Below are positions 15,701-20,033 of a DNA stretch of 64,000 nt, in pieces. How positions within the stretch are numbered: the stretch's first letter is position 1; every line of letters begins with the position of its first letter. The translations under genes and the position numbers were made by a program. Source of the DNA: an uncultured Flavobacteriales bacterium. Lineage in GTDB: Bacteria > Bacteroidota > Bacteroidia > Flavobacteriales_D > Sanyastnellaceae. Under the pieces are notes generated by a model. That model was not told the origin of the DNA and ran no database searches. It saw only the letters and a program-made list of their open reading frames with translations. The stretch lies in NCBI GenBank assembly GCA_905478325.1, contig CAJQIB010000008.1:1-64000 (forward strand), read 5' to 3'.

Positions 15701-15768
15701 TTGACGAAATTCAAGGTCCACTGTTAGCAGTCCAATTCAATGACACGAACTGCAATCACAATAGAACG

Positions 15769-15776
15769 TATGTTTG
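15769..15776 (+). promoter_or_regulatory. -7 promoter box (TATGTTTG) for the choice-of-anchor L protein
   Basis: This is a perfect TAnnTTTG, 26 nt before the ATG at 15803. It argues for 15803 as the start, because the upstream in-frame ATG at 15740 would lie before the promoter. Confidence 0.5.
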
Positions 15777-15802
15777 GTAGCACACTTGTCGCATTCAGAT
15801 TC

Positions 15803-18100
15803 ATGAAACAGTCCATTCTCACACCCCGTATTAGCGATCTTTCTTCAGAGCATCGCTCCCTGTTGGACGAAGTTGGAAATCGTCACCGCGGCAGATCATG
15901 GGCTGAATTCGTTTTTCTCGGATTGGCTGTTTTTTGCTGGAGTGCCGCAACGGGGCAGATTCAGGTGGATCAAACCCTCACCCCGGAAGAGTATGTCAAC
16001 ACCGTGCTTCTTGGTGAAGGTGTTGAAGCGTTCAACGTGACGTATACGGGTGGACTCTCACAATTGGGCTATTTAACCCAAGGGGAAGATTCCTTTTCCA
16101 TCGCTTCAGGATTGGTTCTGAGCACGGATGCTTCAGAAAACCTCGAATGCTCCATCAACACCTGCGACGACTGTCTCGGAGCCGCCTTCGCTGATCCAGA
16201 CTTGCTGGACATCGCCAATTCTGTTCCACCGATGATCGGCCAAAACTTCACCGTAACTTCGGTCAACGATGGATGTGTCTTAGAGTTTGATTTTGTCTCC
16301 GGCGGGGATTCAATTAATTTCAATTACGTCTTCGGATCAGACGAGTACGAGACGTGGATCAATACCCAATACAACGATGTCTTCGCTTTTTTCTTGAGCG
16401 GACCAGGGATTACGGGTCCATTCGATAGCCCAGCTGGATTTCCCGATGGAGCGGTCAACATTGCCGGTGTCCCCGATACCGATCCCATTTTACCCATCAC
16501 CATCTCTTCAGTCAACTCGGGCACAAACGCTGTTTACTACGAAGACAATCAAGGCGGAACCGATGTTTGCATCAACGGCTACACGGTACCGTTTACGGCA
16601 GAATACGCGGTCCAATGCGGCGCAACGTATCACATCAAGCTCGCCATTGCTGACGGCAGTGACACCGCTTTGGAGTCCATCGTGGTTTTAGAAGAAGGCA
16701 GCTTTTCTTCCAATGCCTTTGACCTGGTGGCGAGCGCATCTGTTTCTGGAAATCAGATCTTCCTGGGAGACACGACGGTGGTAGAAAGGTGCAACAATGC
16801 CATCTTCAAAATCATTCGTCCAAGCGCAACGACAGAAGACACGTTGAATGTGACCATCTCAGGTACAGCGACAAACGGTGTCGATTACGAAACCATCGAT
16901 CCGGAAGTGATCATGTTGGTGGGACAATACATCTATGATTTGCCGTTGAATGTTTACGATGATGCAGAAGCAGAAGCTCCCGAAACCGTGACCATCGAGT
17001 ACCTGTACACCAATCTGTGCGGCGACTCCGTCTTGCGATCGGCCACCCTGGTGATACAAGATTTCGAACCTACCGTGCTTGACTTTGAATCTCCTGTGCT
17101 CATTTGTCAGGGAGAAGCCGTTTTGGAAGTCAATCCGATTAGCGGTTACGGACCGTTTACCTATTCTTGGACTACCGGGCCAAATGACACCTTAGCAGTC
17201 AACATTATTAGTACCGATGTTGCCGGCCAAGAAACGGTTACCGTGACTGATGTTTGCGGCATACCGGTGGAGGCTTTACTCATGTATGCGGAACCGCCTG
17301 AATGGGACTTCATTATCAGCCAAAACCCTAGTCCTGTTATTTGTGCAGGGGACAACGTTTACTTGCAGGCAAATACCGCCGAAGATTTGGGACCCCTGGA
17401 ATATGTCTGGTCCACAGGCGGAGATGTGCAAACGGAATTGGTCAATCTGGATACCACCACGACGGTCGTACTGACGGTAACGGACGCATGCGGAACGGAA
17501 AACATCGACAGTTTGTATATCGAAATCCCCGTTTATGATCCCATTACGGTGTATGAAGACGATGTCTGCGTGGGACTTCAGGCCCGGCTCGATCTGGAAG
17601 GAGGTTCAGGCATCTACACCTTCTTTACCTGGCAATATTCAAATTTCGATGCGAATCAGAATCCACAAGATTCCATTTGGTTGCCTGTCGACCAATCCTT
17701 AGACAGCCTCGTCACATTCAACAGTCAGTTTGGCGATTATCAATCAACGACAGAACCAGGCACTATGGAGGTTTGGGCAATCGACCAGTGCGATAGCAGG
17801 GTATCGTTCATGATCAGCCTCATAGTGTGCGACACGGAAATCCCCAATGTCTTCTCTCCAAACAACGACACCTACAATGACTTTTTCAGAATTCCGGGCA
17901 TCGAAGGCTTTCCCAACTCAAGCGTTGAGATTTTCAATCGATGGGGCAATCTGGTCTTTCAGGATAATGACTACAAAGGCGGCTGGGATGGCCGGATGAA
18001 TGGAGACCCCGTTTCTGATGGGACGTACTATTACGTATTGAGGCGGTCGGATGGCGAAACCTTTTATGGCCCGCTCACGATTCTACGCAAGCGCCAGTAA
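15803..18100 (+). CDS. Choice-of-anchor L surface protein with type B T9SS sorting domain
   Basis: The protein is 765 aa. A long N-terminal signal region ends in the hydrophobic stretch FVFLGLAVFCWSAATGQIQ. Residues about 60-330 form a choice-of-anchor L domain: NVTYTGGLSQLGYL, GLVLSTD, FNYVFGSDEYETW, FAFFLSGPGITGP and KLAIADGSDTALES. Repeated immunoglobulin-like strands follow (SVSGNQIFLGDTTVVE and later SWTTGPNDT-type units). The final 85 residues are the gliding-associated type B sorting domain, with IPNVFSPNNDTYNDFF, VEIFNRWGNLVF and GWDGRMNG. T9SS would export it to the surface, where such proteins often act as adhesins. An alternative start exists at 15740. Confidence 0.9.
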   Translation: MKQSILTPRISDLSSEHRSLLDEVGNRHRGRSWAEFVFLGLAVFCWSAATGQIQVDQTLTPEEYVNTVLLGEGVEAFNVTYTGGLSQLGYLTQGEDSFSIASGLVLSTDASENLECSINTCDDCLGAAFADPDLLDIANSVPPMIGQNFTVTSVNDGCVLEFDFVSGGDSINFNYVFGSDEYETWINTQYNDVFAFFLSGPGITGPFDSPAGFPDGAVNIAGVPDTDPILPITISSVNSGTNAVYYEDNQGGTDVCINGYTVPFTAEYAVQCGATYHIKLAIADGSDTALESIVVLEEGSFSSNAFDLVASASVSGNQIFLGDTTVVERCNNAIFKIIRPSATTEDTLNVTISGTATNGVDYETIDPEVIMLVGQYIYDLPLNVYDDAEAEAPETVTIEYLYTNLCGDSVLRSATLVIQDFEPTVLDFESPVLICQGEAVLEVNPISGYGPFTYSWTTGPNDTLAVNIISTDVAGQETVTVTDVCGIPVEALLMYAEPPEWDFIISQNPSPVICAGDNVYLQANTAEDLGPLEYVWSTGGDVQTELVNLDTTTTVVLTVTDACGTENIDSLYIEIPVYDPITVYEDDVCVGLQARLDLEGGSGIYTFFTWQYSNFDANQNPQDSIWLPVDQSLDSLVTFNSQFGDYQSTTEPGTMEVWAIDQCDSRVSFMISLIVCDTEIPNVFSPNNDTYNDFFRIPGIEGFPNSSVEIFNRWGNLVFQDNDYKGGWDGRMNGDPVSDGTYYYVLRRSDGETFYGPLTILRKRQ

Positions 18101-18121: not shown

Positions 18122-19024
18122 CTAACTCTGCTTGTAAAATAAGTGCATAACCACGGCATGCGGCAGCGTGATGGTCGAGATAATGATCAAGGCCAACAAC
18201 GGAATGGACACCGGTATGAAATCAATCCAGGAAAGCCAAAACGTGACCATTGTGAAAAATACGCTCAACAGAGAATAAGGCATCAAGAGTCTTAGAAAGT
18301 CACGCAAGGAAAACGCATCCTCCTCCTTTTTCAAAAACTGAAATTCTTGACTCATCACGCGCAGTGAATGCAACACCACAAAATACATGGTGAAGCCAAT
18401 GATGAACGGAAACAAGAAGAACGTCAGATGGATCAGAGCCAGGAGGAAGAGTTCTCCACCCAGCCGATTCCAATCAAAGGAGCCCCTCTGAATAAAGACG
18501 AAGAGCATACCCACTGTCAAGGCATTCAACGCGATGAACGCTTCAGATAGAAATGCATGTTGATATACAGCCTGAAAAACTGCGGTATCCTTGAAAAACT
18601 CGGTATACCCTATCAGCTCCTCTGTATTGTAATAAATAAGCGTCAGCAGCAACGTCAGCCCCCAAGTCAGAAACAAAAAAGGACGTAGAAATGATCGTTT
18701 CAGCTTCAGGTCATTGAGTTGACTTTCTCCAAAATGAAACGCTGAAAGCACTAGAAAAAAGACAAAACTCCACAAGGGCTCAACAAGCCAGCCGACTAAA
18801 AACAAGAGAATCAGTCCGAGATAAGCCCCGTAAAACTTCAGTTGGGATGCGGTATTCTTTTTAAAGAACAATACGTGATCAATGGCCCCATGCGGGATTC
18901 CAAAGGCCAGAATCAACACTGATGCAACGGCAAGTTGCTGTTCAATACTGATATCAGTATAGGCCTCAAATACATGGTACAGCGCATACAGGCAAACCAC
19001 AAAAATGAAGGTGAACCAATTCAT
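18122..19024 (-). CDS. blh: Brp/Blh family beta-carotene 15,15'-dioxygenase
   Basis: This polytopic membrane protein (300 aa) has the histidine pattern of the Brp/Blh family, which cleaves beta-carotene into two retinals: GIPHGAIDH (His45, His50), SAFHFGE (His97), VVLHS (His219) and TLPHAVVMH (His289, His294). These residues bind the catalytic iron. Retinal is normally made for a microbial rhodopsin, but no rhodopsin or carotenoid gene lies in this window, so the partner must be elsewhere. A -7-like box ends 4 nt before the ATG. It converges on the adhesin gene, 21 bp away, with no T-tailed terminator. Confidence 0.88.
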   Translation of the reverse strand: MNWFTFIFVVCLYALYHVFEAYTDISIEQQLAVASVLILAFGIPHGAIDHVLFFKKNTASQLKFYGAYLGLILLFLVGWLVEPLWSFVFFLVLSAFHFGESQLNDLKLKRSFLRPFLFLTWGLTLLLTLIYYNTEELIGYTEFFKDTAVFQAVYQHAFLSEAFIALNALTVGMLFVFIQRGSFDWNRLGGELFLLALIHLTFFLFPFIIGFTMYFVVLHSLRVMSQEFQFLKKEEDAFSLRDFLRLLMPYSLLSVFFTMVTFWLSWIDFIPVSIPLLALIIISTITLPHAVVMHLFYKQS

Positions 19025-19028
19025 CTGA

Positions 19029-19036
19029 CGAAAATA
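19029..19036 (-). promoter_or_regulatory. -7-like box (TATTTTCG) 4 nt before blh
   Basis: It matches TAnnTTTG except for C at the seventh base. The spacer is TCAG, then ATG at 19024. Confidence 0.45.
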
Positions 19037-19072
19037 GAGTCAAGACTTGAACGACCTTCATTTCAAGGGCTC

Positions 19073-19116
19073 AAAAAAAAAACGGAACCAATCTCGAAGT
19101 GAGAAAGATTCCGTTT
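19073..19116 (-). terminator. Intrinsic terminator after tRNA-Val
   Basis: On the minus strand, AAACGGAA pairs with TTCCGTTT around a 21-nt loop and is followed by a run of ten T, immediately behind the tRNA. Confidence 0.75.
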
Positions 19117-19119
19117 TGG

Positions 19120-19194
19120 TGGGCGATGAGAGACTCGAACTCCCGACCCCCTCGGTGTAAACGAGGTGCTCTGAACCAACTGAGCTAATCGCCC
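19120..19194 (-). tRNA. tRNA-Val (UAC)
   Basis: The cloverleaf is 75 nt. The acceptor GGGCGAT pairs with ATCGCCC, the anticodon stem CCTCG/CGAGG encloses loop TTTACAC (anticodon TAC), and the T loop is TTCGAGT. CCA is encoded at 19117-19119, unlike the tRNA-Phe in this window. Confidence 0.97.
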
Positions 19195-19250: not shown

Positions 19251-20033
19251 GTGAAAAATATTTGGCTACATCGCATTCAAAGTTGGTTTAAATGGCTCAA
19301 GGAATCCAATTCTTGGAGGGCCGTTCATCCCCCATGGTTGTTTGGTGTGTTGCAAACAATGCACCAAATGGAAGGGCACAATCCTGCGATTGAAACCCTT
19401 CGAAAAAAATTACGCGCCGACACTACCCCCATTCAACGCTTGGACTTTGGCGCGGGATCGCAATCACATTCAGAAACAGTGGGAGATGTCGCGCGAAACT
19501 CCCTCAAACGCCCCCGCCATGCGGTTGCGTTAGGAAACCTATCCCGAAGCATACAGGCAGAGCATATCCTTGAATTGGGAACCTCCCTCGGCTTGACGAC
19601 TGCATACCTCGCCAATCAATCGAACACGGTCACCACGTGTGAGGGAGATCCAGCCATTGCTGCGTTGGCAAAAGCACAATGGGATGCACTTGGGCTCACC
19701 AACATCACCCTTCACGAAGGTCGATTTTCCGACACGCTTCCTCTGCTCATGGCACAATGGAAGAAATCCAACCATCCCGGTTTTGACCTGATTTTCATCG
19801 ATGGCCATCATATCGGGAGCGCATTGTTAGCGTATGTCGACGTTTTGAAACCATGGCTTCGCCCGAGAGGCGTGCTCGTTTGCGATGACATCCACTGGTC
19901 ACCTGACATGGAAAATGCATGGCTGGAGTTGACCCACGACCCGCATTGGACCAATGGTGCGGACTTCTATGAGTGGGGGCTATTGACCGCCAATCCTGAT
20001 TTATCCAAAGAAATCCGGAGCATCCGGCTTTAA
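19251..20033 (+). CDS. Class I SAM-dependent methyltransferase
   Basis: The protein is 260 aa. The SAM-binding glycine motif ILELGTSLGLTTAYLA is near residue 105. An acidic ribose-binding residue (VTTCEGDPAIAALA), FDLIFIDGHH and GVLVCDDIHW follow, as in catechol-type O-methyltransferases. The N-terminal VHPPWLFGVLQTM region corresponds to a HSPF-type segment seen in many Bacteroidetes homologues. The start is GTG at 19251, supported by the adjoining promoter box; the substrate is unknown. The sensor kinase gene begins 48 bp downstream with its own box. Confidence 0.85.
   Translation: MKNIWLHRIQSWFKWLKESNSWRAVHPPWLFGVLQTMHQMEGHNPAIETLRKKLRADTTPIQRLDFGAGSQSHSETVGDVARNSLKRPRHAVALGNLSRSIQAEHILELGTSLGLTTAYLANQSNTVTTCEGDPAIAALAKAQWDALGLTNITLHEGRFSDTLPLLMAQWKKSNHPGFDLIFIDGHHIGSALLAYVDVLKPWLRPRGVLVCDDIHWSPDMENAWLELTHDPHWTNGADFYEWGLLTANPDLSKEIRSIRL

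Follow-up and report, generated by a model that had tools for sequence, protein, structure and literature searches.

Genes for rhodopsins and for blh are 'often adjacently coded' in Flavobacteriia, according to PMC5932025. The blh gene described here lies instead between a gene for a secreted protein and a tRNA gene, with no rhodopsin gene beside it. This arrangement raises two questions: what the cell would use its retinal for, and how the gene came to be where it is. We analysed a stretch of 64,000 nucleotides, hereafter the window, which forms the start of contig C8 (298,750 bases) in an assembly of 2.38 Mb, 59 contigs and 98.87% completeness.

A Brp/Blh gene between a secreted-protein gene and tRNA-Val

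The gene and its surroundings comprise the following features, in window coordinates.

15740..18100, plus strand: secreted protein of 786 aa carrying a CHU_C domain for type IX secretion (PF13585, 87.5 bits, cut-off 27); one border of the slot
18122..19024, minus strand: blh (type A), Brp/Blh beta-carotene 15,15'-dioxygenase, 300 aa, ATG start (TIGR03753 and PF15461)
19025..19045, minus strand: short conserved stretch right upstream of the blh start, a possible promoter (sequence comparison)
19079..19117, minus strand: terminator-like inverted repeat with a T run behind it, between tRNA-Val and blh (17-nt arms, 82% complementary)
19117..19194, minus strand: tRNA-Val(tac), the other border of the slot (ARAGORN)
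19251..20033, plus strand: methyltransferase-like gene, a conserved flank of the slot (PF13578, 55.6 bits, cut-off 26.3; synteny)

An earlier note had assigned the 18122-19024 reading frame to Brp/Blh, and the family models bear this out. The product matched over its full length and exceeded both curated cut-offs: TIGR03753 of NCBIfam with 144.9 bits against 95.25 (E = 3.2e-42), and the Pfam BCD family PF15461 with 145.7 bits against 28 (E = 2.7e-42). It was the sole PF15461 match in the whole genome, and a search for related solved structures returned none at E up to 1. The same note had counted six histidines typical of the family, a figure that needs correction. The protein contains nine (residues 17, 45, 50, 97, 156, 199, 219, 289 and 294), four of which, His45, His97, His219 and His289, are invariant among relatives (41/41 aligned Blh sequences, and 19/19 in a second alignment). 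Four histidines serve as iron ligands in the family, and these four would probably hold the iron of this enzyme. The parts of PMC4110020 and PMC9227343 that were available give no detail on Blh histidines. Full-length match and invariant histidines liken the protein to the Brp/Blh family (TIGR03753; PF15461), and no difference was seen in the protein itself; what differs is its place in the genome. Judged by its sequence, the window gene encodes an established kind of enzyme, Brp/Blh; what is unusual is its genomic place.

The neighbours had been named as an adhesin gene and a tRNA, and both stand, as the CHU_C-type secreted protein, whose gene is kept across the genus by synteny, and tRNA-Val. 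The blh gene lies downstream of the tRNA on the same strand, past the terminator-like repeat, and a stretch resembling that repeat is visible in two related genomes, G067 and G068. Fifteen bases of the 19025..19045 stretch are identical in G067, G068 and G060 and altered in G063. It is likely that blh has a promoter of its own, for which 19025..19045 is the candidate. No copy of the tRNA-Val 3' end that might mark an attachment site was found beside blh, the 12-nt end occurring once in the window, and the remaining repeats near blh have little length or strength.

The same genome encodes a proteorhodopsin and carotenoid genes

The earlier note described a blh gene without a neighbouring rhodopsin and asked for a search of the rest of the genome. 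Its description holds at the blh locus; in the genome as a whole, PF01036 gave one match, on contig C17 (G000:C17:19882-20538). Among solved structures, this 240-aa protein has its best matches in proteorhodopsins (9jov, 325 bits). Its residues D86, T90, M94, E97 and K225 align with D97, T101, L105, E108 and K231 of green proteorhodopsin. The retinal lysine (K225) and the D-T-E motif (D86, T90, E97) are thus both present. D-T-E is the proton-pump motif of rhodopsins, and L or M at the tuning position corresponds to green absorption. The C17 protein is accordingly predicted to be a proteorhodopsin that acts as a light-driven proton pump.

Carotenoid genes form a single run on contig C29: a CrtI-type desaturase, crtB-like, idi, crtD, cruF-like, crtZ-like and crtYcd. 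Four products exceeded their cut-offs: the CrtI-type desaturase (687 bits against 640, NCBIfam), CrtD (560 against 500, NCBIfam), the CrtYcd lycopene cyclase (82.5 against 39.4) and IDI (174.6 against 127). The crtB-like protein fell below every NCBIfam cut-off (the best was HpnD, 103 of 278.6 bits); its assignment is based on its SQS_PSY match (PF00494, 151.5 bits, cut-off 26) and its position in the gene run. The CruF-like protein also fell below its NCBIfam cut-off. The crtZ-like protein matched no Pfam and no NCBIfam family, and we presume its identity from histidine motifs alone. Two prenyl synthases of PF00348 are encoded on C8, either of which could be CrtE. A CrtY of the PF05834 kind was sought and had no match in this genome; the lycopene cyclase is of the CrtYcd kind. 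Of the crtEBIY set named in the earlier note, the CrtI-type and CrtYcd proteins exceed curated cut-offs, a putative CrtB is placed by PF00494 and position, and CrtE may be one of the two PF00348 proteins. Judging from gene content, the cell could produce both beta-carotene and retinal, and it possesses a rhodopsin that could employ the latter. The earlier proposals, that retinal is made from beta-carotene and that a rhodopsin elsewhere would speak for its usual use, gain support from finding the proteorhodopsin and the carotenoid genes in one genome.

Separation of blh and rhodopsin genes is genus-wide

We surveyed 114 genomes of the family, as grouped by the tool, most of them fragmented assemblies; 70 had a blh match, 74 a rhodopsin match and 64 both. 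One PF15461 match (G066, E = 9.9e-4, below the cut-off) proved spurious on reading and was dropped from the linkage count, which left 63 genomes. Defining linkage as blh no more than 5 kb from a rhodopsin gene, we found a linked pair in 40 of the 48 genomes from other genera and in none of the 15 from the window's genus; in all 15, blh and the rhodopsin gene lie on different contigs. The window's own genome is one of these 15 and has no adjacent pair. There, C8 ends 18 kb from blh, and the nearer end of C17 is 20 kb away from the rhodopsin gene; the separation is at least about 38 kb, provided that the contigs are correct. We conclude that the separation is genus-wide.

Eight genomes of other genera were also unlinked (G016, G035, G043, G048, G095, G101, G104 and G113). 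G048 (genus g17, assembled in two contigs) has both genes on contig C2, in opposite orientation and with 83 kb between them (L080, L099), a further separation within the family. The remaining exceptions may be contig breaks.

The rhodopsin locus of the genus lacks the blh of its relatives

The rhodopsin locus in the window's genus has the order selU-like, selD, proteorhodopsin (PR), maf, guaA. Eighteen genomes of the genus had a rhodopsin match, and all 16 readable loci are without blh beside PR; the other two are G063, whose contig stops there, and G060, whose match is 13 bases from a contig edge. Genus g18 shares this gene order and carries blh between selD and PR in all seven genomes with a rhodopsin match. 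In genus g20, blh lies between selD and PR in four of the five loci readable beyond blh (G085, G093, G096, G099); in G083 PR and blh are together, with selD out of view.

A PR tree of 36 rows joined the window's genus and g18 with support of 100/97, and in the best tree the window's genus was not one clade (two changes). The guaA tree, rooted at the midpoint, agreed with it (100/100 for the window's genus and g18), though with three groups and no outgroup guaA alone does not show that the two are sisters. In the pieces compared, sequence identity of guaA in the window's genus is 79-81% to g18 and 68-70% to g20, leaving aside one partial hit at 70%. The Blh proteins of g18 and g20 are sisters (100/99). 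The rhodopsin locus of the genus is the g18 locus minus blh, and the simplest reading is that an ancestor of the genus lost the blh beside its rhodopsin gene.

The rhodopsin gene of G068 (L146:16-735) differs from that of the window's genome (L059:9870-10592) by a synonymous difference of 0.15, compared with 0.76 for gpmI. Such closeness could mean that the locus was exchanged recently or that the G068 assembly includes a contig of foreign origin.

Two Blh types occupy two slots in the genus

The 22 genomes of the window's genus contain two Blh types, A and B, both distinct from that of g18. Type A is carried by the window's genome (G000) and by G060, G063, G067 and G068, where it adjoins the CHU_C gene and, wherever the contig extends far enough, has tRNA-Val on the opposite side. 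Type B occurs in 12 of the 17 other genomes, beside large secreted-protein genes; Pfam was run on one pair of flanks, those of G057, and each of the two proteins carries IgGFc-binding and CHU_C domains. The type-B reading frames overlap or nearly touch the secreted-protein genes in an operon-like manner (L060-L071, e.g. L065:2360-10182). Contig breaks account for the seeming lack of blh in G055 and G066, as type-B Blh ends of 30 and 39 residues, respectively, are present at contig edges in these assemblies. The G056 contig stops within the adjacent gene, and neither blh nor rhodopsin was matched in G062 or G065.

Both slots were also read in genomes without the respective type. The interval from the CHU_C gene to tRNA-Val is without blh in all ten relatives that lack type A and have both genes on one contig: six have only a short spacer there (<200 bases), a 243-aa protein is encoded in three, and G051 has an apparent remnant of this protein. 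On C26 of the window's genome, two IgGFc-type genes resembling those that flank type B are separated by about 140 bases with no blh. For each lineage read within the genus, blh is therefore present in a single slot and missing from the others.

Two further observations concern these slots. The type-B slot of G068 holds a 576-aa frame that is a SulP-type anion transporter by Pfam (L191:3861-5591); G063 (L192) and G067 (L193) have 576-aa frames with similar starts. In G060, a 773-aa Big_12/Fib_succ_major protein (L139:3952-7727) adjoins tRNA-Val, and the contig terminates in a partial second tRNA-Val; an insertion with a tRNA copy is possible.

The position of type A beside a secreted-protein gene instead of a rhodopsin, and of type B in other species between two such genes, could suggest that Blh serves something other than rhodopsin, for example a retinoid signal or another apocarotenoid. 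All five type-A genomes nevertheless have a rhodopsin match, and the two genes are linked in 40/48 genomes of other genera. We regard a different use as very unlikely; the usual use of retinal, as rhodopsin chromophore, would be by far the likeliest.

The blh of the window probably belongs to a different subfamily

We compared Blh sequences in two trees. The first covered 41 of the 70 genomes with a blh match; for the second, the very long rows G039 and G040 were removed and 17 rows added (G513 as a shortened frame). Type A groups with g21 (94/92) inside a starred set of 20 rows that includes Blh of g21, g2, g4, g17 and families f58 and f2. Type B groups with a g7 sequence (99/95).

AU tests, for groups chosen after the first tree had been seen and on trees that carry long-branch warnings, rejected clades of type A with g18 (p = 0.0003), type B with g18 (p = 3.5e-5) and types A and B together (p = 5.5e-9). 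A clade of type B, g18 and g20 was weakly rejected (p = 0.017), and one of type A, g18 and g20 stands (p = 0.138 in the first tree, 0.099 in the second). That last result is what would be expected had type A been the former neighbour of the rhodopsin gene, sharing an old common origin with the linked genes, moving within the genome and then diverging fast. The PR tree, however, predicts for such a move that type A should group with g18 alone, the arrangement rejected at p = 0.0003, and the starred set places type A with Blh of quite other genera and families. We consider a move within the genome unlikely.

The window's Blh instead appears to be a replacement of the lost rhodopsin-linked blh by a different subfamily, with horizontal transfer as the inferred source. 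The closest Blh sequences from beyond the genus show 40-43% identity in a sample of 399 genomes of the order, and at most 33% in one of 395 genomes of the phylum. No donor of type A was found among the 399 genomes of the order; at only 40-43% identity, any transfer is old or the donor was not sampled.

Type-A blh is under constraint

Ratios of dN to dS between type-A copies are 0.109 (G000-G067), 0.102 (G000-G068), 0.103 (G067-G068) and 0.123 (G000-G063, with stops skipped), at synonymous distances between copies of 0.19 to 0.83. Ratios of 0.10-0.12 indicate that the gene is under constraint. The reading frame is broken in two assemblies: the G063 copy has two in-frame stops, and in the G060 copy a T run carries 1 nt too many. 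Such breaks would fit a gene that is decaying and out of use; they are either assembly errors or real damage and disuse. Against decay, the frames are intact in G000, G067 and G068, dN/dS is about 0.10 and the four histidines are kept, and we judge it extremely improbable that blh is falling out of use.

Frames with both lycopene cyclase and Blh matches

A single frame of about 650-730 aa matches both CrtY-type lycopene cyclase and Blh in 17 genomes of the family. The example from G043 (L019:178-2226) comes from a Pfam and NCBIfam run on that genome's copy; the others are in G005, G007, G008, G009, G013, G017, G018, G022, G023, G024, G025, G032, G034, G035, G037 and G038. In 14 of these genomes a rhodopsin gene lies no more than 5 kb from the frame. 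The frame likely encodes a bifunctional enzyme that would convert lycopene to retinal. Elsewhere in the order, many of the Blh matches in other families, examined for their Blh part, also lie in frames of similar length. Our searches of open-licence papers showed no report of a CrtY-Blh fusion in bacteria; PMC10016063 describes a CrtI-CrtB-CrtYcd-Blh fusion in a protist.

Discussion

We think it probable, from gene content, synteny and phylogeny, that the Blh of the window feeds retinal to a proteorhodopsin encoded far away, the linked blh having been lost and a blh of another subfamily having come to lie elsewhere. Blh would cleave beta-carotene at its central double bond to give two molecules of retinal, and the retinal would load the cell's own proteorhodopsin, a putative light-driven proton pump encoded elsewhere. 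The ancestral blh between selD and the rhodopsin gene would have been lost in the ancestry of the genus. In the window's lineage, a blh of another subfamily, probably acquired by horizontal transfer, would then have come to sit between the secreted-protein gene and tRNA-Val. The two genes would be apart because the rhodopsin-side blh was lost and the other blh lies in the CHU_C/tRNA-Val slot.

The arrangement shares features with several known systems. As with the PR-blh pair of marine Flavobacteriia, both genes are in one genome, and the rhodopsin locus keeps the gene order of the g18 locus (selU-like, selD, PR, maf, guaA); the difference is that blh is gone from the locus and a different blh lies elsewhere. 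For Rubricoccus and Rubrivirga, PMC5877348 proposes that blh was gained or lost by itself, and there too the flanks of blh are unlike those of the rhodopsin gene. A haloarchaeal source is proposed in that paper, whereas here the nearest Blh sequences are in the same family and order. Prokaryotes that bear rhodopsin and lack blh are also known, as PMC7734400 describes; the likeness is a rhodopsin locus without blh, and the difference is that blh is present elsewhere in the genome here. Our search of open-licence papers gave no report of loss and replacement of blh.

Across the genus and g18, blh is found in three slots: beside rhodopsin (g18), between the CHU_C gene and tRNA-Val (the window's lineage), and flanked by a pair of genes for IgGFc-type secreted proteins (in most of the genus's other species). 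With three Blh lineages in three slots and the rhodopsin gene fixed, blh might behave as a travelling single gene, its place among surface-protein genes freeing retinal supply from rhodopsin expression and tying it to other conditions, for example particle attachment. We offer this tentatively and give it only a small chance of being right.

A blh gene without an adjoining rhodopsin need not imply another use of retinal. Genus g18, with its linked pair, and the window's genus, with two Blh types in two places, provide a comparative case on whether linking the chromophore enzyme to the rhodopsin affects regulation.
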